Shown in pieces: positions 285-12,862 of a stretch of 38,276 nucleotides of DNA. The position numbers and the translations under genes were made by a program. The stretch is from Nitrosomonas sp. (GTDB lineage Bacteria; Pseudomonadota; Gammaproteobacteria; Burkholderiales; Nitrosomonadaceae). The stretch covers positions 1 to 38,276 of the forward strand of contig JAGRFM010000036.1 in NCBI GenBank assembly GCA_020446045.1, written 5' to 3'. The notes under the pieces were generated by a model. The model was not told where the DNA came from and did not search any database. It saw only the letters and a program-made list of their open reading frames with translations. Every line of letters begins with the position of its first letter. The first letter of the stretch is position 1.

Positions 285-1649
285 TTATAGAAGAAAATAG
301 GTCGCCAATCCCAGGAAACTCATAAATCCAACAACATCTGTAACGGTCGTTAAAATAACCGCGCCGGATAGCGCTGGATCAATGTTTATACGCTGAAGAA
401 TCAAGGGTATGGCGATACCGGATACTGCAGCTGCGATTAGATTGATAACAATAGCTGCCGCAATCACCAGGCTGATACCGGTATCCCGGAACCAGAGCCA
501 GGCCAGCAGCGCAATGACCACTGCCCATAACATGCCGTTTAGAATTCCAATAAAGGCTTCTTTTCGCGCCAGCCAAAAACGATTGCCGCTGGTAATTTGA
601 TCAAGCGCGAGTCCCCTAATCGTCAACGTTAATGTCTGACTACCCGCAATTCCACCCATGCTTGCGACAATCGGCATTAGCACGGCCAGCGCAACGATTT
701 TATCAAGCGTATCGGTATACATACCAATAACCCAGGCAGCCAGAAATGCAGTAATTAAATTGATACCCAGCCATACCGTGCGACGCTTGGTGCTGCTGAT
801 AACAGGCGCAAACAAATCTTCTTCTTCATCCAGACCGTCTCGTCCCAGCATTGTACGATCAGCTTCTGCGCGTAAAATATCAATCACGTCATCCACAGTA
901 ATACGTCCGAGTAAACGATTATTTTCATCCACAACTGCAGCCGAGACCAAATGAAATTTCTCGAACAAAAGCGTGACCTCATGCTCATCGTCCGTTGCCG
1001 GAATAGCCTGATGTTGCGTATCCATGACGTCTTTAACCAGCATGTCTTCGTCCAAGGTCAGCACTTTGTTGAGTAACAGTTTTCCCTGGTAATACCCCTC
1101 ACGGTCTATCACCATCAAACCATCCGTATATTCGGGAAGTTCTTTATGCAGTTGCAAATAGCGCAGTACTACTTCAAGCGTAACGTCGTTTCTGACCGTG
1201 ATGACATCCTGGCTCATCAAACGGCCTGCCGTTCCCTCCTCGAAAGAAAGATTGGTTTCCAGGTGTTCCAGAATATCATCGGGTAATTTTTCTGCGATGG
1301 ATTGCCTGATATGATCCGGAAATTCCTCTATCATATAAGCCAGATCGTTTACATCCATTTGTTCGGCAGCGGCAACCAGTTCTTCTGGCTCCATCCTGAC
1401 GATCAAGCTGTTTCTGACTTCATCGTGCAGCAGTGACAGTGTGTCAGCTTCCAGAGATTCCGGGATTAACTCCCATAATTGTCCCCGCTTCTTGGGCGGC
1501 ATGGCTTCCAGAATATCGGCCAATTGCCCAGGGTGCGTTTGCTCCAATAAAGCTTTTAATTGATCAGTTTCCTGCTGCTCAAGTAGCAGAAAAACCTGGT
1601 CCAAAGAAAGACTTGAGGCTTCGACGGGTGTTTTGTCCTGCTCTGTCAT
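285..1649 (-). CDS. mgtE: Magnesium transporter MgtE
   Basis: Inner-membrane Mg2+ channel of the MgtE/SLC41 family, 454 residues, the usual length. Layout: an alpha-helical MgtE_N domain (about 15-135), a CBS pair (about 140-265) that senses cytosolic Mg2+, a charged linker helix, and five membrane segments from about 290 to the C-terminus. The pore-lining stretch MPIVASMGGIAGSQT and the C-terminal TTVTDVVGF, which carries the conserved Asp of the ion path, are both present. The start is supported by an AGGA ribosome site 7-8 bases upstream. The gene stands alone; its stop codon lies within a small AT-rich hairpin at 277-293. No Mg2+-responsive leader is evident in the 229 bases upstream. Confidence 0.95.
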   Translation of the reverse strand: MTEQDKTPVEASSLSLDQVFLLLEQQETDQLKALLEQTHPGQLADILEAMPPKKRGQLWELIPESLEADTLSLLHDEVRNSLIVRMEPEELVAAAEQMDVNDLAYMIEEFPDHIRQSIAEKLPDDILEHLETNLSFEEGTAGRLMSQDVITVRNDVTLEVVLRYLQLHKELPEYTDGLMVIDREGYYQGKLLLNKVLTLDEDMLVKDVMDTQHQAIPATDDEHEVTLLFEKFHLVSAAVVDENNRLLGRITVDDVIDILRAEADRTMLGRDGLDEEEDLFAPVISSTKRRTVWLGINLITAFLAAWVIGMYTDTLDKIVALAVLMPIVASMGGIAGSQTLTLTIRGLALDQITSGNRFWLARKEAFIGILNGMLWAVVIALLAWLWFRDTGISLVIAAAIVINLIAAAVSGIAIPLILQRINIDPALSGAVILTTVTDVVGFMSFLGLATYFLL

Positions 1650-1878: not shown

Positions 1879-2805
1879 TTAGAAATAATTCTTACTGATT
1901 GTATCGTTGATTTTAATTACACCAAGCTGAAGCTCATCAATGAAGTCATGCAATTTGTCCTGATTGAATTTCTCTAAATTCGCACGTAACAGTTTCTTCT
2001 GCAATTGTGCTATGAGCTGCATAATTTTACCGTTGCGCGGCAAGTTATCCAAACAAGCGTTGACTTGGCATAAGGTATGGTAAAAAGAACGCGGAAAATG
2101 TTCTTCCTGAAGCAGAAACGCTAATACATCCGCTCTTCGAATACGTTGCCGTATTTTTCTCCGGTACATCTGATAGGCGGTCAATGATTTGAGCACACTC
2201 ACCCACTGGATGTTGGCAAAAGGCGTCAATTCTTCAGGCATATCGGGCAGCAGCGAAGCCGAACGCACATCAATAATCCGTGTCGTCATATCAGCACGCT
2301 CCAGATTACGCCCCATTCGCAAAAATTCATACGCTTCATCATGCGTCATGGTACCCGCCAACATACCGCTAATCGTCTGCACGCCTAAAATAACGGAACG
2401 CAGGTAATCATAGCGGTGCCGTTGCGTAACTGCACTACGGGAATGCGTCTTGCTGGTCAGGTAAAGGGTATTAACCTGTTCCCACGCTTCGCGCGGGATG
2501 ATATCCCGGATAGTACGCGAATTCTCACGCGCCATGTTCAATGAGCCGAGTATGGAATCAGGATTCCGGGTATCCGATACCATGAAACGAATCACATTGC
2601 GTTCATCGACCTCTTCATACAATTCATAAAAATAATCGCGGAGACTGGTAATATCGAGAATCGGTTCCCATCCCAATCGTATTTTTTTGGGCAAATCAAG
2701 CAACAAGTGTGTGTTGACATTAACCAACCGCGCGGTATTCTCCGCCCTTTCGAGATAACGCGCCATCCAGTACACCCGGTTGGCAACACGTGACAGCATT
2801 GTCAT
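1879..2805 (-). CDS. Alpha-E domain protein (DUF403)
   Basis: 308 residues, all alpha-helical in appearance, beginning with the hallmark VANRVYWMARYLERAENTAR of the alpha-E family. No signal peptide or membrane segment is evident, so it is probably cytosolic. The biochemical function is not established. The family almost always travels with circularly permuted ATP-grasp proteins and often with transglutaminase-like and Anbu peptidase genes, and comparative genomics has placed these in predicted peptide-synthesis or peptide-tagging systems. Here the start ATG overlaps the upstream ATP-grasp stop by 4 bases (ATGA), with a GGAGG ribosome site inside the upstream gene, so the two are translationally coupled. 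A second ATG two codons later is an equally possible start. Confidence 0.9.
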   Translation of the reverse strand: MTMLSRVANRVYWMARYLERAENTARLVNVNTHLLLDLPKKIRLGWEPILDITSLRDYFYELYEEVDERNVIRFMVSDTRNPDSILGSLNMARENSRTIRDIIPREAWEQVNTLYLTSKTHSRSAVTQRHRYDYLRSVILGVQTISGMLAGTMTHDEAYEFLRMGRNLERADMTTRIIDVRSASLLPDMPEELTPFANIQWVSVLKSLTAYQMYRRKIRQRIRRADVLAFLLQEEHFPRSFYHTLCQVNACLDNLPRNGKIMQLIAQLQKKLLRANLEKFNQDKLHDFIDELQLGVIKINDTISKNYF

Positions 2806-4256
2806 GTCGCCTCCATATCCACAATCCAGGTATCCTTACTGCCGCCACCTTGTGAAGAATTGACAACGGTTGAACCTTTGCGTAACGCAACGCGGGTCAG
2901 TCCTCCCATCGTTACATTGATCTGTTCACCGCTCAGGATAAAAGGCCTTAAATCCAGGTGGCGCGGCTCTACATGATTATCCACCAGCGTCGGAGCGGTC
3001 GATAAAGTCAGCATCGGTTGCGCGACATAGTTGCGCGGATCACGCCTGATCAAACGGATAAATTTTTCGCGTTCTTTCTTACTGGCCTGCGGCCCGATGA
3101 GCATGCCGTAACCACCCGATTCATTGGCCGGTTTCACAACCATCTCATCGATATGGTCTATCACATACTGCCGTTCCGGCTTGTTAATGCATTTGTACGT
3201 TGGCACATTGGGAATAATGGCATCCTGATCCAGGTAATATTTAATGATTTCAGGCACGAAAGCATAAACAACCTTGTCATCAGCCACGCCCGCACCCGGT
3301 GCATTGGCCAGCGCCACCTTGCCGGCTTTCCAGGCGCGCATCAACCCGGGCACACCCAGTAGCGAATCCGGGTTAAACACTTCAGGATCAAGAAAAAGAT
3401 CGTCGATACGGCGATAAATGACATCAACGCGTGTCAAACCTTCAATGGTACGCATGTAGACAATGTTATTGTCATCAACTGTCAAGTCGCCACCTTCTAC
3501 CAGTTCTGCACCCATTTGCTGTGCGAGATAAGCATGTTCAAAATAAGCCGAATTATAAATGCCGGGGGTCAGGACAACGATTTCGGGTTGATCCCCTGGC
3601 CGTGGTGACAAGGCCGCCAGCGTGTCATAGAGTTGTGAAGGATAATCATCGACAGGCAGGATATTGTATTGTTCAAACATTTCTGAGAACAGGCGTTTCA
3701 TCACCAGCCTGTTCTCCAGCATATACGAAACGCCTGAAGGAACCCGCAGATTGTCTTCCAGTACGTAAAAAGTCCCGTCCTTATCGCGCACCAGATCCGA
3801 ACCGCAAATATGCGCCCAGATACCCAGAGGTGGATTGACACCAACACATTCGGGACGGAAATTTTTGGAATCTTCCAATAACACTGCTGGAAAAATCCCA
3901 TCCTTAACAATTTTCTGCTGATGATAAAGATCGTCTATAAACAGGTTCAGAGCCTGAACACGTTGTTTAAGCCCTTGTTCGACTGTCAGCCATTCTTGCT
4001 TATCGATAATGCGTGGAATAATATCAAAAGGCCACGCGCGGTCGATGGAGCCTTCTTCTTCGGTATAGACGGTAAACGTGATACCCATGACATGGATAGC
4101 AGACTCTGCGGCCACCTTATATTCTTCAATTTCCTTGTCTTTTAAGGTACGCAAATAACTGCACAATGCCTGCGCTGCAGGTCTTGGGCGGCCTGTTGCA
4201 CGCAGCAACTCATCGTAAAGATTTTTTACCTTGTAACTGCCCCAACGGATAGCCAT
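2802..4256 (-). CDS. Circularly permuted ATP-grasp protein (DUF404/DUF407 type)
   Basis: 484 residues of the circularly permuted type 2 ATP-grasp family (COG2308-like). Visible motifs are YVLEDNLRVPSGVSYMLENR near residue 165-185, and VVKPANESGGYGMLIG near 375-390, which has the Lys-Pro and glycine-rich loop of the ATP-grasp fold. By family knowledge it should catalyse an ATP-dependent carboxylate-amine ligation through an acyl-phosphate; the substrates are unknown. It is the first gene of a two-gene minus-strand unit with the alpha-E gene and is transcribed divergently from the Anbu peptidase across an 84-131 bp gap, depending on the Anbu start. No transglutaminase partner, frequent in such clusters, is seen here. 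The start MAIRWGSYKVK is the first good ATG but lacks a clear ribosome site. Confidence 0.9.
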   Translation of the reverse strand: MAIRWGSYKVKNLYDELLRATGRPRPAAQALCSYLRTLKDKEIEEYKVAAESAIHVMGITFTVYTEEEGSIDRAWPFDIIPRIIDKQEWLTVEQGLKQRVQALNLFIDDLYHQQKIVKDGIFPAVLLEDSKNFRPECVGVNPPLGIWAHICGSDLVRDKDGTFYVLEDNLRVPSGVSYMLENRLVMKRLFSEMFEQYNILPVDDYPSQLYDTLAALSPRPGDQPEIVVLTPGIYNSAYFEHAYLAQQMGAELVEGGDLTVDDNNIVYMRTIEGLTRVDVIYRRIDDLFLDPEVFNPDSLLGVPGLMRAWKAGKVALANAPGAGVADDKVVYAFVPEIIKYYLDQDAIIPNVPTYKCINKPERQYVIDHIDEMVVKPANESGGYGMLIGPQASKKEREKFIRLIRRDPRNYVAQPMLTLSTAPTLVDNHVEPRHLDLRPFILSGEQINVTMGGLTRVALRKGSTVVNSSQGGGSKDTWIVDMEAT

Positions 4257-4298
4257 AAAGTCATTTTATTTGTTTTCAACAATCTTTTTATAACATGA

Positions 4299-4327
4299 TT
4301 TCAAAGTAATATACTAATCGATATAAT
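4299..4327 (+). promoter_or_regulatory. Possible sigma-70 promoter for the Anbu gene
   Basis: A perfect -10 hexamer TATAAT lies at 4322-4327, with a poor -35 (TTTCAA, 4299-4304) at 17-bp spacing. The predicted transcript would begin near 4334. That leaves a leader of about 54 bases before the ATG at 4388 but only a few bases before the alternative ATG at 4340, which mildly favours the later start. The -35 matches only half of the consensus, so this is tentative. Confidence 0.3.
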
Positions 4328-4387
4328 GGCGACTTTTTCATGGCGCGATTTTTGTGCGTTGGACTGCTTTCTTTAACTTATTACTCT

Positions 4388-5146
4388 ATGACTTACTGTC
4401 TTGCCATCAGCGTCAACAAAGGCATTGTGTTTGCATCCGACTCAAGAACCAATGCGGGTGTCGATTACGTCACCACATACAGCAAGATGCATACTTTTGT
4501 TTGGCCTGATGACCGCACCTGCGTCTTGTTAACCGCCGGCAATCTGGCGACATCACAAGCGGTAATCAACAACATCAAAACCGATCTCGAAGAATCCAGA
4601 GCCAAAATGAGCCTGCACAAAGGCAAGCATTTGCACGAACTTGCCCATTATGTCGGTCAACTGAGCCAGAAAGAACAACGCCAACATGCCGACGCCATGG
4701 AAAAAAGTGGCAATGGCGGCATTGGGGCAAGCTTTATTCTGGGCGGCCAAATAACCGGACAGGCGCCGGAAATTTATCTGATTTATCCACAAGGTAATTA
4801 TATCAGCGCATCATCAGACACGCCATATTTGCAGATTGGTGAAAATAAATACGGCAAGCCCATACTGGACCGCATCATATCGCCGACCACGTCACTGGAG
4901 GATGCCGCACGCTGCGCCCTGGTATCGCTCGAATCCACGATTCGCAGCAACATCTCTGTTGGACCGCCGATAGAGCTGGCCATTCATACCTGCGATGCCA
5001 TTCAAAATCCTTATCACCAGAAACTGACGTTGAATTCACCGCTGTATAAATCATTGCAAAAAAAATGGAATGACGGACTGCGCCAGGCCTTCAATCGGTT
5101 GCCTCGTTTTGATTGGGAAAACAAAAACGCCAAGCCTGATGGTTAG
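4388..5146 (+). CDS. Anbu-type proteasome-like peptidase
   Basis: 252 residues of the Anbu family (ancestral beta subunit, related to HslV and 20S proteasome beta subunits; COG3484). I chose the ATG at 4388, giving MTYCLAISVNKGIVFASDSR: the family starts Met-Thr-Tyr-Cys, and the Thr exposed by Met removal is the N-terminal nucleophile. The reading frame is open back to an ATG at 4340, but that would add 16 residues and bury the Thr. Other expected residues are present: Asp of FASDSR (position 18 counting Met), Lys33, and the DTPYLQIGE block. Known Anbu proteins form open spiral or ring-like oligomers; the natural substrate is unclear. Its 3' end overlaps the convergent metallopeptidase gene by 56 bp. 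Neither start has a strong ribosome site. Confidence 0.85.
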   Translation: MTYCLAISVNKGIVFASDSRTNAGVDYVTTYSKMHTFVWPDDRTCVLLTAGNLATSQAVINNIKTDLEESRAKMSLHKGKHLHELAHYVGQLSQKEQRQHADAMEKSGNGGIGASFILGGQITGQAPEIYLIYPQGNYISASSDTPYLQIGENKYGKPILDRIISPTTSLEDAARCALVSLESTIRSNISVGPPIELAIHTCDAIQNPYHQKLTLNSPLYKSLQKKWNDGLRQAFNRLPRFDWENKNAKPDG

Positions 5147-6221
5147 CATCCGTCACAACCCGATGAACAAAACGAAGCTTGTCAAGCACTCTATTAGAAA
5201 TTACAAATGGATAGGCATCATCCATTCCCATACTGCGGTTCAGCGCGTTTAACGCAACCGAAAGCCGGCGCCAGTCTTCAAACAATGCATCGAAAATAAC
5301 CGGCTTAAAATAACCGCTTCCCATCTTTATTCCTGCTCCCGGAGCCGAAATATCATAGCCGTGAATGCGAAAACCAAAATCATGCGCCGTTTCAAGCGTA
5401 TCCACCATATGCAGATAATGCGCCCAGGTTTCAGCCCAATCTTCCCATGCATGAGCGCTGGCGTATGCGCTAATCCATTGATCCTGCCAAGATTGGGGCG
5501 GTCCATATTCATAATAGTTACTTAAAGCCTGATCATAGTCCAACCGTTCGTCACCGAACATTTCTCTGAAGGCATCAACGAAGACAGTCTCATTGATCAA
5601 TAGATCCCAGTAATAATGCCCCGATTCATGACGAAAATGGCCCAACAATGTGCGATAACGCTCATTCATTTTGTCGCGCATTGCCATACGTGAACTATGT
5701 TCCGCTTCAAGAAGATTAATGGTTATTTTGCCAAAATGGTGGCCTGTTATAATCTTTTGACTAGTGCCTGTTCCATCGTTGAACTCGCCCAAATCCGCTT
5801 TGTCGCTTAAGAACTCGAAACATAACCCTCTGGCGGGATCTTGAAAGCGATTGATAACCGGTAAATTCAAGCTATACAGCGTATAGAGCAGCCGTCTTTT
5901 GGCCTGCTCTATACGATACCACAAGGTAATATTTTTAGTTTCATTAAGGTTTGGAATAATATGGTTAAGTCGGCATGACAAGCACATTACAGAATCGTCG
6001 TCCTCTGCCACCATCCAGTTGCATACATTGTAATCCAGGTAATTTTTGCACTGTCGGTATGCCCGATCATTAAATAAAGCCCGCCAAAGGCCCTGTTGAA
6101 GCAGTTCAAAAGCACTTAACTGCCTTTCTTCGGGCAGATAACCGACCATCCGATTGCATGAAAGACAGTAGCTGTTTTCAAAATGCAGACTATTACCGCA
6201 ATGACATTGAAAAGTTTTCAA
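5091..6221 (-). CDS. Zinc-ribbon plus zincin-like metallopeptidase (COG4307 type)
   Basis: 376 residues. The N-terminus carries a Cys-rich zinc-ribbon-like segment (C6-x-C8, C19-x2-C22, with further Cys at 67, 80 and 83). The catalytic half holds the zincin signature HESGH at 198-202, with a conserved acidic/His region HAWEDWAETWAHYLH downstream that probably supplies the third zinc ligand. This matches the putative zinc-binding metallopeptidase family (Peptidase_Mx-like). There is no signal peptide, so it is probably cytosolic. It converges on the Anbu gene and shares its last 56 bp with it. Such zincins have been noted with alpha-E, ATP-grasp and Anbu genes, so a joint role in making or removing a peptide modification is plausible but unproven. 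Confidence 0.85.
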   Translation of the reverse strand: MKTFQCHCGNSLHFENSYCLSCNRMVGYLPEERQLSAFELLQQGLWRALFNDRAYRQCKNYLDYNVCNWMVAEDDDSVMCLSCRLNHIIPNLNETKNITLWYRIEQAKRRLLYTLYSLNLPVINRFQDPARGLCFEFLSDKADLGEFNDGTGTSQKIITGHHFGKITINLLEAEHSSRMAMRDKMNERYRTLLGHFRHESGHYYWDLLINETVFVDAFREMFGDERLDYDQALSNYYEYGPPQSWQDQWISAYASAHAWEDWAETWAHYLHMVDTLETAHDFGFRIHGYDISAPGAGIKMGSGYFKPVIFDALFEDWRRLSVALNALNRSMGMDDAYPFVISNRVLDKLRFVHRVVTDANHQAWRFCFPNQNEATD

Positions 6222-6279: not shown

Positions 6280-7107
6280 TTAACGCAACAATATAACTGG
6301 AATATTAGCCTGCATGACTAAAGCCTGTTTTTGCAATTGGGTCAGAAAAGTGTTGTCACTTTCCACCAAAAATATACGGCCATGAAACTGCTGAATCACC
6401 GACAGAATCTGCTCAGCACTGTTTTCTTGCAGCCTCGCCAGACTGACTTGTAACCGTTGATCCACAATTTTTTCTTGAATCATTCTACACAGTTGCCGGT
6501 ATGTTACATCATCAACAGCCGGCAATATGACGATCAACTGATTATGGTCTTCATGGGCAAGCTCTATCGCTAACAAGAGTGCTCGCTGGCTGGCTTCGCT
6601 GCCGCTGAAACTCACCACTACCGGGCGTTCTATGTTACAACCATATTGCAGTACAGCCAGATTACAACCGGCGGAAGACAAAACAAGCCGCGTAATACTG
6701 CCGATTTTCTGACTTTTACCCAGTGTTAACGTATTTTTTCCGATGACCAGCAAATCAGACCGACCCGGGGTATTGCACAACTCATGTGCAACATTCCCGC
6801 GTAGCACATCAAATGGGATTTTAATCTGATTCTGTTGCGCAATTGTTTCAACCAGCTTGCGAAGCCGTGCTGTCTGTGAAGCTATCGAGCGCTCCATACC
6901 AGCGACATTCATCGTCTTACCCGATGAAGAACCGTATGTTACTTCACGCACGAACGGCAATTCGGCTGCTTTGAGCAAGTCAGCATCTTCAATGAACAGT
7001 GCGTTGAGTTGTGCGTTCAACCGGTTTGCCAATGTGATCGCGGCCTGCAAAATATGCCGGTTTGCGGTGCTCGTATCCAGTGCAACCAGGATTCGGTTAA
7101 TCGCCAT
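6280..7107 (-). CDS. Universal stress protein (UspA-like, tandem)
   Basis: 275 residues from ATG 7107, starting MAINRILVALDTSTANRHIL, the canonical beta1/nucleotide-loop opening of Usp domains. The first Usp domain spans about 1-145 and includes LLVIGKNTLTLGKSQKIGSITRLVLSSAGC, an ATP-loop-like stretch; the remainder (from about 150) resembles a second, degenerate Usp domain. The frame is open to 7200, but the extra residues lie inside the 3' end of the Lon-like gene and do not look like Usp. ATG 7116 is a possible alternative start adding three residues. It overlaps the end of the upstream protease gene by 11 bp, which suggests co-transcription and a shared stress-related role. Ligand and target are unknown. 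Confidence 0.85.
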   Translation of the reverse strand: MAINRILVALDTSTANRHILQAAITLANRLNAQLNALFIEDADLLKAAELPFVREVTYGSSSGKTMNVAGMERSIASQTARLRKLVETIAQQNQIKIPFDVLRGNVAHELCNTPGRSDLLVIGKNTLTLGKSQKIGSITRLVLSSAGCNLAVLQYGCNIERPVVVSFSGSEASQRALLLAIELAHEDHNQLIVILPAVDDVTYRQLCRMIQEKIVDQRLQVSLARLQENSAEQILSVIQQFHGRIFLVESDNTFLTQLQKQALVMQANIPVILLR

Positions 7108-9487
7108 TTTTTTCATTGCCGTTTGGTGTTTCTTTACTGCCTTTGGACAATTTCTGACGGATATTCTCCAGTTCACGCAGACGTTCTTCGACGTTGGCAT
7201 TTATCCGGTCTGCTGTTTCACCGGTTAACACTTCCATCGCTTCATCAAAATTTTTGTAGGCATAAACGGCAAATTGCCCGTTTGCACAGGCATCGATCAC
7301 ATCCGCTCTCAGCATCAAATGTTTGACATTACTGGCAGGAATCAATACCCCCTGATCACCGGTTAATCCACGAAACTTACAGATGTCGAAAAAACCTTCA
7401 ATTTTTTCATTAACCCCGCCTATAGCCTGAGCTTCACCGCGCTGATTGACCGAACCGGTCATGGCGAGACTCTGCCGTATCGTGAGCCCCGACAATGCGG
7501 AAAGCAAACTGCATAGTTCAGCCATAGATGCACTGTCGCCATCAATCCGCCCATACGATTGTTCAAACACCAGGCTGGCCGAAAGCGATAAAGGATAATC
7601 TTTGGCATAACGTTCCGCCAGAAACGAAGACAGGATGAAAACACCTTTGGAATGAATCGCCCCGCCGAGTTTTGTCTCGCGCTCAATGTCCACCACTTTT
7701 CCATTGCCAAGCCGGGTAGTCGCCGTGATCCGGGATGGAATGGCAAAACTGACATTACCCAGTTGCATCACCGCGAGGCCGTTGATTTGCCCTGTCTTGG
7801 AACCTTCGGTATCAATCATCAAGGTGCCGCGATTAATTGCCTCCTGCAACAGCTCCCGAACTCTGTCGCCGCGATAAATCTGTGCATCAATGGCCTGTTG
7901 CACATGTTCACCATTGACGACCGATTGATTAGACATGACGGCATAATGATCTGCCTCACGTAACACGTCGGACATATCCATTACATTGATCGAAAGCTTT
8001 TCTGCGTCTCCGGCAAGTCTGGCGCCGTGTTCAATAATACGCGCCACACCGGAACGATCAAACGGCCGCAATTGATCACGTCGCTGCAGTCCTGCTATCA
8101 TCTGGGCATAAACCTGTTGGTTATCATCGGTACGGTGCATTCGGTCATCGAAATCCGCCGCAATTTTGAACAACTGTTTGAATTCCGGATCATAGGCGTG
8201 CAACAGGTAATAAAGCCTGCGTTCTCCAATCAATACTACCTTGATATTCAACGGAATCGGTTCAGGTTCCAGCGACACTGTGCTGACCATACTGTAAATC
8301 TGACCAAGCGATTGAATCTTGATTTGCTGCGAAAACAACGCACGCTTGAGCCCTTCCCAGCCATACGGTTGCATCAGCAATTTCATCGCATCAATAATCA
8401 GATAACCGCCATTGGCCTGATGCAGCGCACCCGCTTTGATTAACGTAAAATCAGTCTGTAACGCCCCCATATGCACGGTATATTCTACGGCACCGATCAG
8501 GTTGGCATAATTGGGCAGATCGAGAAACACAACCGGCACACCACCGTCGTGCTGCGTATGATCGACAAGGATATTCACGTCATAGCGCTTGAAAGCCGGC
8601 ATTTTCATAAGCGGCACATGCATGTGCTGCGTGGTGTCTTCCTCACGGCGGAAATTCTGCTGATTATTGATGACGTCCTGCTGGACGGACTCCAAATATT
8701 TCAGAATCACCGGATGATATTGATACTTGTTTTTCAGTTCATCAATCAAATGACCAGAAGCAAACATCACGATTTCCCGGTTGAGTTCCTTTATTCTGTT
8801 ACGCGCCTCCCGTTGCCATTGCGGTTGCATACGTAAAAGCGCGGTCAGTTTTTCTTCCAGGGTATTAATCGCTTTTTCGATGCGCTGTTGTTCCTTTTCA
8901 GGCAGCGCATCAAATTCTTTGGGTTTGATGACTTCATTGTCTTTCACGGGCGCAAATGCAAAACCGTGTGGCGTTCGCAGCAACCGCATGTTGCTGGCTT
9001 CCGCTTCATCATTCAAGGTGCTGAAAGCGGATTCGATCGTTTTTTTCAGATCGTCATCAATTTCCTGTAAACGCAAATGATACTCGTCGGTCTCAAATGC
9101 GCTCGGAATGGCGCTACATAAGTCCTCAACCAACTGATGCATATCCTGACGAAAAATAGTGGCATGCTCGCTGGTCAGGCTGATCGAAATAGGTTCTGAC
9201 GGCTTATCGAAATTATTCACATAAACCCAGTCCGGCGGCATTTCTCGGGTTTGTGACTGCTTATCAAGATAATCCCGTACGACCGTATGTTTACCCAGAC
9301 CGGTTGGACCGAGCACAAACAAATTATACCCGTCATGCCGAATATTCACCCCCAATTGCAACGCCTTTAAAGCGCGATCCTGACCGGCCACCTCCTCAAG
9401 TACATCCAGTTGATCGGTGGTTTCGAAATCAAACTGATCCAGATCACATATTATATAAAGCTGATCTGCAGCAAGTGGTTTTATCAT
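7097..9487 (-). CDS. Lon-like ATP-dependent protease (LonB/LonH/YcbZ type)
   Basis: 796 residues. The N-terminal ATPase part has Walker A GPTGLGKHT at 60-68, followed by a long helical insertion. The C-terminal Lon protease domain carries the Ser-Lys dyad: Ser652 in GDSAS and Lys695 in NEKIEG, 43 residues apart as in E. coli Lon (679/722). The classic Lon N-terminal substrate domain is absent, so this is the AAA_32/Lon_C family (E. coli YcbZ/LonH-like, archaeal LonB-like), not Lon itself. No membrane segments are evident, unlike archaeal LonB. It should degrade misfolded or regulatory proteins in the cytosol. The stop lies 11 bp inside the downstream Usp gene. Confidence 0.92.
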   Translation of the reverse strand: MIKPLAADQLYIICDLDQFDFETTDQLDVLEEVAGQDRALKALQLGVNIRHDGYNLFVLGPTGLGKHTVVRDYLDKQSQTREMPPDWVYVNNFDKPSEPISISLTSEHATIFRQDMHQLVEDLCSAIPSAFETDEYHLRLQEIDDDLKKTIESAFSTLNDEAEASNMRLLRTPHGFAFAPVKDNEVIKPKEFDALPEKEQQRIEKAINTLEEKLTALLRMQPQWQREARNRIKELNREIVMFASGHLIDELKNKYQYHPVILKYLESVQQDVINNQQNFRREEDTTQHMHVPLMKMPAFKRYDVNILVDHTQHDGGVPVVFLDLPNYANLIGAVEYTVHMGALQTDFTLIKAGALHQANGGYLIIDAMKLLMQPYGWEGLKRALFSQQIKIQSLGQIYSMVSTVSLEPEPIPLNIKVVLIGERRLYYLLHAYDPEFKQLFKIAADFDDRMHRTDDNQQVYAQMIAGLQRRDQLRPFDRSGVARIIEHGARLAGDAEKLSINVMDMSDVLREADHYAVMSNQSVVNGEHVQQAIDAQIYRGDRVRELLQEAINRGTLMIDTEGSKTGQINGLAVMQLGNVSFAIPSRITATTRLGNGKVVDIERETKLGGAIHSKGVFILSSFLAERYAKDYPLSLSASLVFEQSYGRIDGDSASMAELCSLLSALSGLTIRQSLAMTGSVNQRGEAQAIGGVNEKIEGFFDICKFRGLTGDQGVLIPASNVKHLMLRADVIDACANGQFAVYAYKNFDEAMEVLTGETADRINANVEERLRELENIRQKLSKGSKETPNGNEKNGD

Positions 9488-10128: not shown

Positions 10129-10965
10129 TCACAACCCGGCTTTCTTAATAATCCGGCTGACCGTTGCATAATGCAAGCCAAATTCATCCGCAATCGCTTT
10201 CATCGAATAATCACCCGTTTGATAGGCTGCTGCAATCCCTGTATTTCTGTTAGCAAAAGAAGAATAATACGAAAGCGGTCTGGCTGCTGCCCTTCTCTGC
10301 GCGCGCGGAATTTCACTGATATTTTTATCGGATTGCATATGCTGCTGCATGGTTTTGACAAATTCCTCCTTACCAAGATAAATCTGCCCGCGCAGATCAA
10401 CCCAAACGCTTGGCAATTTCATTCCCGCATGGACAAAATCAATATAGGCTGCAATGGCTCGCTTGCGTTGTTTACCAAACTGTCCCAGTACCCAATCTGT
10501 TTGCAACCAATCAGGACGATCGCTTTTGCCAGTCATCGCTGAATAACTGCTCCAGGACCATTGTTCGACAGCTTTGACTTCACCTGACCGTACCGGATTC
10601 AAAACAACATAACGCGACAATTCGAGCAGATAACTGTCTTTATCCACCAGAATTGCTTTATAACGCCCCTGATAAACATGCCCTACTCGATTGTGCCTGC
10701 GATTAAAATTCTGAGTATAAACACCATTTAATTGCCGCATCCCTTTGGACAAATTCGCTTCTGCTGTTTCCACAACAATATGATAGTGGTTATCCATCAA
10801 ACAGTAGGCGTGACAAACCCAGTTAAACCGTTTGCAAACATGGCCAAACAATGTCACCCAGTTACTGCGGTCAACATCATCCAGATAAATGTCCTCTCGG
10901 CGATCTCCTCGCGAGGTCACATGATACAAACCACCGGATAATTCAATTCTTAACGGCCTTGCCAT
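10129..10965 (-). CDS. REP-associated tyrosine transposase (RAYT/Y1_Tnp family)
   Basis: 278 residues from ATG 10965 (MARPLRIELSGGLYHVTSRG, the standard opening of this family; an upstream TTG at 10977 would add four residues). The HUH motif is His60-Tyr61-His62 in LMDNHYHIVVET, and the probable nucleophilic Tyr is at about 112 in DSYLLELSRYV. An HTH segment (SMKAIADEFGLHYATVSRI) ends the protein, as in the longer RAYT subgroup. Such proteins cut and rejoin single-stranded palindromic REP sequences and are usually domesticated single-copy genes. It appears intact. Candidate associated repeats lie upstream at 10975-10990 (small palindrome) and 11027-11050 (tandem repeat). Confidence 0.9.
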   Translation of the reverse strand: MARPLRIELSGGLYHVTSRGDRREDIYLDDVDRSNWVTLFGHVCKRFNWVCHAYCLMDNHYHIVVETAEANLSKGMRQLNGVYTQNFNRRHNRVGHVYQGRYKAILVDKDSYLLELSRYVVLNPVRSGEVKAVEQWSWSSYSAMTGKSDRPDWLQTDWVLGQFGKQRKRAIAAYIDFVHAGMKLPSVWVDLRGQIYLGKEEFVKTMQQHMQSDKNISEIPRAQRRAAARPLSYYSSFANRNTGIAAAYQTGDYSMKAIADEFGLHYATVSRIIKKAGL

Positions 10966-11026
10966 TATCAATTTCAATATTGGAATATTGCGCAGGTTAT
11001 AGCATTAATTGTTGCAACACAAGACT

Positions 11027-11947: not shown

Positions 11948-12862
11948 ATGCAAAAACAATTCAAAAAAAGAGTTACCTATCTGGCATTAGCAACAGCTAT
12001 TGTAGCTGGCGGGATTTCAGCTGCTCAAGCAGCCCCTATAGCAGCTGATGTTGTGTTTATCGTGGATGAATCAGGATCGATGTCCGGCGAACATGCATGG
12101 CTTGGTGGCATGATTGGCTCTTTAGAAGCGGAGCTTACTGCAGCGGGTGTAGGTGTATCCGAAAGCAATAACTATGGACTGATTGGGTATGGTGCAACAG
12201 GCACCCATACATCAGCCGGATCGGGAGGTCATGCACATACTGTTGGCGGCGGCCAGTGGGGAAGTGCAGCTCAACTTGCCACAGCAACATCAGGTCTGGT
12301 TGCGTCCGGAGGATTTGAGGATGGGTATCAGGCCATAGATTATTTCTTCGATAATTATACGATTGATGCAAACCATGCCTTAAACATCGTTCTGATCACC
12401 GACGAAGACAGAGATGTATTGGATGGCTCCTTAAGCTATGCGTCTATTTTAGCGGAGATTCAATCACATGGCGGGTTATTAAATGCGGTTATAGATTGTG
12501 GATTCGCTGGCAGTGGTGGAGCACCCAGTAGCGCAATTGGTATAGATTCCGGCAATAATGCGTATCTCGCTGACGGTGCCGGTGGGTATACCACTACTGG
12601 CGGCGGTCATCAAAGTGGTGGCTGCTTTGGAACATCATATGCCAATTACGGTCAAATGGCTCTTGCTACTGGCGGCGCAGCATGGGACTTAGGTATTTTG
12701 CGTAGCGGCGGCCTAAACGCCACTTCATTTACGAATGCATTTGTAGACATTAAAGTTCAAGAAATTGTTACTATTCCTGAGCCAACAACACTTGCTTTAC
12801 TGGGTATGGGCTTGATAGGTTTCGGAGCGATATCTTCTCGACGTAAACAATCTGCAGCTTAA
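11948..12862 (+). CDS. VWA-domain PEP-CTERM sorting protein
   Basis: 304 residues. Signal peptide 1-28 (cleavage after AAQA). A von Willebrand A domain follows directly, with MIDAS motif DESGSM at 40-45 and a downstream ITDEDRD acidic loop, so divalent-metal-dependent adhesion or binding is likely. Two Cys (in IDCGFAG and GGCFGT) sit in Gly-rich loops and may form a disulfide. The C-terminus is a complete PEP-CTERM signal: PEP at 277-279, the hydrophobic LALLGMGLIGFGAI, then the basic SSRRK. Such proteins are cut and anchored or released by an exosortase (EpsH/XrtA-type), which is not encoded in this window. Expression is probably sigma-54 dependent. AAAGGA precedes the ATG. It is the only gene of its unit. 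Confidence 0.9.
   Translation: MQKQFKKRVTYLALATAIVAGGISAAQAAPIAADVVFIVDESGSMSGEHAWLGGMIGSLEAELTAAGVGVSESNNYGLIGYGATGTHTSAGSGGHAHTVGGGQWGSAAQLATATSGLVASGGFEDGYQAIDYFFDNYTIDANHALNIVLITDEDRDVLDGSLSYASILAEIQSHGGLLNAVIDCGFAGSGGAPSSAIGIDSGNNAYLADGAGGYTTTGGGHQSGGCFGTSYANYGQMALATGGAAWDLGILRSGGLNATSFTNAFVDIKVQEIVTIPEPTTLALLGMGLIGFGAISSRRKQSAA

Follow-up and report, generated by a model that had tools for sequence, protein, structure and literature searches.

Contig JAGRFM010000036.1 from the genome of an ammonia-oxidising Nitrosomonas sp. (assembly GCA_020446045.1), analysed as one stretch of 38,276 nucleotides that we call the window, carries four contiguous genes coding for an alpha-E protein, a circularly permuted ATP-grasp protein, the proteasome-like subunit Anbu and PepMx, a metallopeptidase with a zinc ribbon and a zincin domain (Table 1). 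These gene families are already known, and so is the association of ATP-grasp, alpha-E and Anbu, which together with a transglutaminase-like (TGL) protein form the canonical Anbu operon. Our best reading is that the block represents a new variant of this known operon, one that includes PepMx and is without the TGL gene. Papers are cited by their PMC identifiers, each for the parts of its text that were available.

Table 1. Genes and other features of the block and its flanks (positions in the window)
Feature	Position	Strand	Match or remark
alpha-E protein, 308 aa	1879..2805	-	PF04168 E=2.9e-89
Circularly permuted ATP-grasp, 484 aa, predicted carboxylate-amine ligase	2802..4256	-	CP_ATPgrasp_2 PF14403 E=2.7e-168
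Divergent intergenic region, ATP-grasp/Anbu	4257..4387		without a sigma-54-like site on the ATP-grasp strand
Anbu proteasome-like subunit, 252 aa counting Met	4388..5146	+	Proteasome PF00227 E=6.3e-11 (ORF 4340-5146)
PepMx, zinc ribbon and zincin, TTG start	5091..6221	-	Zn_ribbon_DZR_6 PF10005 E=6.1e-27; Peptidase_Mx PF15887 E=1.3e-100
MgtE Mg2+ transporter, syntenic flank outside the system	285..1649	-	adjoins alpha-E also in G006 and N. aestuarii
Universal stress protein (USP) and LonC-type protease, outside the system	6280..9487	-	on the PepMx side also in G006

The contiguity and family membership of the four genes, as given in a preliminary description of this DNA, agree with the positions of the open reading frames (ORFs) and with the Pfam matches, and the ATGA coupling it reported was found as a 4-nt overlap of the ATP-grasp and alpha-E ORFs. 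The peptidase with its zinc ribbon and HESGH motif does converge on Anbu, but here the description needs a correction, in that the two genes also overlap tail-to-tail at their 3' ends, by 56 bp. The ATP-grasp protein shows a near full-length match to the solved structure 3n6x (E=1.7e-162) and matches its own family over the full length, ATP-grasp core included. For alpha-E the sequence search returned no credible solved relative; its two ER motifs, E19-R20 and E169-R170, are invariant in 20 and in 39 aligned sequences.

Anbu and PepMx both retain their active-site residues. The best solved matches of Anbu are 5loy (E=4.5e-77), 5lox (E=5e-62) and 5nyw, with the general Proteasome model scoring more weakly. 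We place its start at the ATG at 4388 (MTYCLA...), as in the Nitrosomonas aestuarii orthologue and the solved Anbus; a start at 4340 was rejected because the orthologues begin with MTYC, and the 16 upstream codons very probably lie outside the protein. With this corrected start, Thr becomes residue 1 after removal of Met, and the N-terminal Thr of the preliminary description is borne out. The catalytic set Thr1/Asp17/Lys32 is present in the alignment to 5lox and 5loy (residue numbers counted by eye). The S1 pocket is of the Anbu-1 type: the published residues are T20, F30, T48, L52 and S55 (PMC5666114), and the window has T20, Y30, T48, L52 and S55, that is, four identical residues and a conservative change of F30 to Tyr.

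PepMx shares the HExxH motif, the zinc ribbon and a full-length match with the Peptidase_Mx/DUF2248 family (PF15887 and PF10005), and DUF2248/PF10005 has been predicted to be zincin-like (PMC3650047); the sequence search found no solved relative. Its HESGH motif spans H198-H202, and H198, E199, H202, E260 and E264 are invariant in 16 and in 27 aligned sequences. The cysteines C6, C19, C22, C58, C67, C80 and C83 are invariant in the 27-sequence alignment, and the ribbon cysteines C6, C19 and C22 are absent from two divergent solo rows of the 16-sequence alignment. The gene begins with TTG in the window and also in G006, a second genome of the genus. Elsewhere we observed unlinked PepMx ORFs of 530-601 aa (L084:7828-9633, L091:8938-10530 and L085:9400-11034), and in the two that were scanned, L084 and L091, the 177-242 residues preceding the zinc ribbon match no Pfam family; these long N-terminal stretches may be upstream extensions of the reading frame and not protein.

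Conservation of the set across the class

To describe the wider distribution we surveyed 369 genomes of the class, counting only full-length PepMx matches, which leaves out 15 of 67 genomes with partial matches only, and scoring a Bact_transglu_N match as strong TGL at E<1e-10, a threshold not reached by 11 of 84 genomes, in which the matches are weaker and mostly partial. PepMx was found in 52 genomes, alpha-E in 106, Anbu in 87 and strong Bact_transglu_N in 73. All but one of the PepMx genomes carry alpha-E (51/52, the exception being G319), as against 106/369 overall (Fisher 1.8e-31). The partial PF15887 matches in those 15 genomes point to a distant second zincin, which may be a related peptidase family; in 10 of the 15 the match falls within profile positions 83-165, and the ORFs are nearly all 350-450 aa long.

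Adding the window and G006 to 54 PepMx loci from the class gives a set of 56 loci. Another gene of the system lies in the stretch around PepMx in 35 of these, and PepMx stands alone in 21, some of them near contig ends. The commonest linked layout is that of the window (PepMx> <Anbu ATP-grasp> alpha-E>, 10/56), and the second is ATP-grasp> alpha-E> PepMx> <Anbu (5/56). Where a locus has both PepMx and Anbu, the two genes converge in all but one case (37/38), lying within 150 bp in 30 and overlapping in 19; in six of the 37 they are at least 1.9 kb apart. Part of this convergence is due to common descent, because the loci are not phylogenetically independent. Directly 3' of alpha-E, on the same strand and less than 150 bp away, PepMx occurs in 26 of 83 PepMx loci, with a 4-nt overlap in seven. 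These comparisons support the claim that the four genes form a conserved set: both the zincin and Anbu are kept beside the ATP-grasp/alpha-E pair, and the contrary result, which had been named beforehand as evidence against the set, was not what we found.

Judged by domain scores, a single ORF contains both the ATP-grasp and the alpha-E domain in 49/228 loci (56/228 by frame length, a count that includes frame extensions such as L088 and L116), and these natural fusions therefore support a physical partnership of the pair. We found no fifth partner among 134 flanking ORFs of at least 130 aa, picked mechanically from 24 loci, in which 152 Pfam families are represented and the commonest occurs in 3/134; the flanking genes vary between loci. 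In plasmid records, PepMx and Anbu were found only at less than 60% identity.

PepMx and the transglutaminase-like gene

The genus sample comprises 25 genomes, not all of them complete. The same three carry all of alpha-E, Anbu and PepMx, and none of these genes was found in the others; the three are the genome of the window (G000, 97.5% complete), G006 (one contig, 100% complete) and G010. None of the three has a match to Bact_transglu_N, which was matched in one other genome of the genus (G004), or to DUF2126. The single Transglut_core match of G000, on contig 23, was considered as the missing TGL and rejected, as it is without Bact_transglu_N and reaches only 27 bits on the TGL profile. The claim that this copy is without a transglutaminase-like gene thus holds for the rest of the genome, where no member of the TGL family was found.

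Among the alpha-E genomes of the class, PepMx is present in 26/33 without TGL as against 25/73 with TGL (p=2.3e-5). Here G133 is counted as TGL-positive for a DUF2126 cut by the contig end, and otherwise the table reads 27/34 versus 24/72. With one genome per family the figures are 16/21 and 15/48 (p=7e-4), and over 1000 random choices of one genome per family the median is p=0.0025. At least one of PepMx and TGL is present in 99 of the 106 alpha-E genomes, and PepMx is linked to other genes of the system in 22/26 TGL-less genomes versus 13/25 genomes with TGL (p=0.017). On the ATP-grasp tree the state of having PepMx without TGL requires 19 changes, at least 10 of them forced by well-supported branches, so this state has changed many times, and tree-aware independent pairs give 5.3 in the opposite and 0.5 in the same direction.

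The pattern across genomes (26/33 versus 25/73) suggests that TGL was replaced by PepMx and not simply lost. It is possible, and we propose it tentatively, that in alpha-E/ATP-grasp systems TGL was repeatedly replaced by the non-orthologous PepMx. Several observations weigh against this. Seven alpha-E genomes have neither gene; the association weakens to p=0.0047 when weak Bact_transglu_N matches are counted as TGL; the tree-aware pairs are too few, with a median p of 0.125 (0.06 with the traits swapped); and on a plasmid of Caballeronia sp. M1242, PepMx lies between a TGL gene and alpha-E. A second sample, consisting of the best 80 alpha-E loci of a scan of public genomes and thus counted at the level of neighbourhoods and not of genomes, adds to these: 13 loci have only PepMx, 29 only TGL, 13 both and 25 neither, so that TGL accompanies PepMx in 13/26 loci and is found in 29/54 of the others (p=0.81). 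Strict exclusion of the two genes is absent from this sample, which counts against strict replacement and leaves replacement only suggestive.

Many loci have beside them a second, fused subsystem, with the same ligase and alpha-E families as the window, which differs from it in that the ligase is fused and two TGLs are present (a DUF2126 transglutaminase and a short TGL). Such a subsystem adjoins 11 of the 13 loci that have both PepMx and TGL, and the TGLs of those 11 may belong to it. When loci with the fused subsystem are omitted, a post hoc split, TGL lies near PepMx in 2/15 and near alpha-E without PepMx in 9/34.

The alternative is plain loss, in which the block is a canonical Anbu operon minus TGL and PepMx is an independent auxiliary gene. 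This explanation draws on the joint presence of PepMx and TGL in 25/106 alpha-E genomes and 13/80 neighbourhoods, and on a close relative, N. aestuarii Nm36, the nearest named alpha-E relative found (82% identical), in which PepMx and Anbu of the same block are separated by an additional TGL-domain gene and one further ORF. However, identity between this TGL and the 12 TGLs of the system that match it with the highest scores is only 26-30%. In G006, G010, L083, L102 and L108 the PepMx and Anbu genes lie within 111 bp of each other, and because the N. aestuarii TGL is divergent and splits this otherwise close pair, insertion is the simpler explanation; the gene looks like an insertion into the block. 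We regard plain loss as unlikely. The ORF beside this TGL gene (L214:6288-7181) has 297 aa and no Pfam match. Among other orders, the loci closest in the tree (L083, L102 and L108) are also without TGL at the corresponding position, and this, together with the partial complementarity of PepMx and TGL across genomes and the apparent insertion in N. aestuarii, speaks against the earlier suggestion that the window may hold a minimal version, if by this a copy reduced by loss is meant.

Distribution within the genus and flanking genes

In a quick tree of 109 ATP-grasps, the window sequence falls in a starred group of eight rows, made up of the three from the genus and five (L139, L083, L102, L108 and L200) that belong to other orders of the class. 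Of 11 genomes from the same order outside the genus, nine are found in another starred group and two elsewhere. The Anbu identities are 70-74% to G164, G376 and G167 and 37-45% to other members of the order. Purely vertical inheritance within the order is contradicted by both the ATP-grasp grouping and the Anbu identities. Taken with the presence in 3/25 genomes, these sequence comparisons indicate that the block was probably either gained horizontally as a whole or lost repeatedly.

In G006 the block is flanked by LonC/USP on one side and MgtE on the other, with 3.6 kb of other DNA separating USP from PepMx; in N. aestuarii its neighbours are USP and MgtE. This USP occurs in the three genomes that carry the Anbu block and in G002, which makes four of the 25 in the genus. 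In the window the USP frame (6280-7200, minus strand) begins inside LonC (7097-9487, minus strand), and a start near 7107 (MAINRILVALD) is likelier. Farther along, the window carries a Y1 (IS200-like) transposase whose C-terminal part weakly matches an HTH domain (10129-10977, minus strand), which we take to be of the kind associated with REP elements, and a protein with a C-terminal PEP-CTERM sorting motif (11948-12862, plus strand).

Possible nitrogen control and function

The canonical Anbu operon (ATP-grasp, alpha-E, TGL and Anbu, for example in Yersinia bercovieri) has the same ATP-grasp, alpha-E and Anbu families as the window, with ATP-grasp followed by alpha-E. The window differs in that it is without TGL, adds PepMx, has Anbu tail-to-tail with PepMx, and is without a sigma-54-like site; such sites are frequent in the canonical operons, not universal. 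Anbu is co-directional with ATP-grasp in 1/25 loci with PepMx only as against 15/33 with TGL only (p=3.7e-4), in 0/8 loci with both, and in 4/25 with neither, which is also low. The operon has been described as four genes including TGL, and terms for a metallopeptidase are absent from the available text of two Anbu papers. Our literature search pairing the names found nothing that links PepMx with Anbu or alpha-E; Iyer et al. 2009 lies outside its coverage. RimK/RimB and RloABC of Pseudomonas (PMC12239564) resemble the window in having an ATP-grasp beside a peptidase, but they have a different ATP-grasp, an aspartic retropepsin and a secreted RloA, and Anbu and alpha-E do not belong to the operons as described there.

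We scanned 250 bp upstream of ATP-grasp and 60 bp of the gene for sigma-54-like sites, defined by at least 10 of 12 consensus positions. After removal of near-copies (180 to 170 loci, with the window left out as a near-copy of L039), 54/170 loci have such a site, compared with 11 when the antisense strand is read and 1.6 expected from mononucleotide shuffles. A perfect 12/12 consensus was seen in L049, L182, L259, L265, L270 and L275; L049 comes from G025, a relative of the same order that gave no match to Bact_transglu_N or PepMx. The sites agree with published nitrogen control: I35_5080-83 of B. cenocepacia depends on NtrC and sigma-54 in the response to nitrogen limitation (PMC5491218), PP_2685-2688 of P. 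putida is induced under nitrogen limitation, which is attributed to NtrB/NtrC (PMC7801951), and in marine metagenomes the operon domains correlate with urea metabolism (PMC3597751). In treating the P. putida genes as a canonical operon, those other than Anbu and TGL are assigned by inference. The sites thus support nitrogen limitation as the condition under which to seek the product of the canonical operon.

The site occurs in only 1/28 TGL-free PepMx loci versus 53/142 others (p=2.3e-4). A tree-aware test of the missing site against PepMx was not significant, so the scarcity possibly reflects shared ancestry, and the link was rejected at that level. Loss of RpoN was also rejected as a cause, since a search of 80 genomes, from a list of 108, found RpoN in all but one (79/80), among them all 26 class-survey genomes that have PepMx and are without TGL; G000 also has RpoN.

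The most economical reading of the four genes, to which we give an even chance, is a cytosolic module of a ligase and hydrolases. Judging from the families, ATP-grasp and alpha-E would activate a carboxylate with ATP and make an amide bond, with a peptide or an amino acid as substrate; the product would be processed or recycled by Anbu, an N-terminal Thr hydrolase whose published relatives form open dodecameric rings, and by the predicted gluzincin-like metallopeptidase PepMx. PepMx would fill the slot held by the transglutaminase-like cysteine protein in the canonical Anbu operon. The shared substrate, the direction of the cycle and the physiological purpose, like the chemistry and the replacement, are what we infer. 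The ATP-grasp of the Y. bercovieri Anbu operon releases phosphate from ATP (PMC6376114). In the preliminary description the block was called a predicted peptide-ligation and proteolysis system, of which the conserved set stands, and the ligation and proteolysis are predictions from the families with which the Anbu literature is partly at odds. The following count against the module: Anbu was without peptidase activity on proteasome substrates and showed no specific interaction with its operon partners (PMC6376114), a role in peptide synthesis has been judged less likely than degradation (PMC5666114), and in 17 of 52 genomes the stretch analysed around PepMx contains no other gene of the system.

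The degradation favoured in PMC5666114 corresponds to a turnover role, in which Anbu and PepMx would degrade proteins and recover amino acids under nitrogen shortage, and ATP-grasp/alpha-E would make no substrate for them but use the released amino acids or regulate turnover. The nitrogen response of canonical operons (PMC7801951, PMC5491218) and the sigma-54-like sites before ATP-grasp fit this role. It is made doubtful by the near absence of such sites from TGL-free PepMx loci and their absence from the window, by the inactivity of Anbu on model substrates (PMC6376114), and by the want of an AAA+ partner for Anbu, which is neither known in the available text of PMC5666114 nor recurrent in the flanks, although a LonC protease lies nearby in Nitrosomonas; we consider turnover possible but clearly less probable than the module. 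Protein tagging, which has been proposed for Anbu operons (PMC6376114), would have the ligase add a peptide or amino acid to proteins in a ubiquitin- or Pup-like cycle, with one peptidase maturing or removing the tag and Anbu degrading the tagged proteins. Two hydrolases of different chemistry with one ligase fit the steps of attaching, trimming and removing, yet neither a gene for a tag nor a conserved small ORF came to light, in work that included no systematic search for small ORFs, and no fifth gene of at least 130 aa recurs, which makes tagging improbable. That the genes are chance neighbours without joint function, as the separate transcripts of convergent genes and the loci with PepMx apart might suggest, is very improbable in view of the co-occurrence of PepMx with alpha-E, the convergence in nearly all loci with both PepMx and Anbu, and the same partners in two layouts.

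Few bacterial proteins are related to the proteasome as closely as Anbu, whose role has stayed an open question since the first description in 2008. If the repeated replacement of TGL by PepMx is correct, the "transglutaminase" of the operon would be a peptidase or amidase acting on the product of the ligase and not a cross-linker, and PepMx and Anbu would form a co-regulated tail-to-tail unit freed from the canonical nitrogen-starvation control, in which the overlapping 3' ends may allow the two messages to control each other. A small set of four genes without a sigma-54-like site could be expressed whole in a laboratory host. The existence of a natural version in which a zinc peptidase stands instead of TGL limits the possible roles of the third enzyme, and if two unrelated folds do fill one slot, the step they share is probably hydrolysis.

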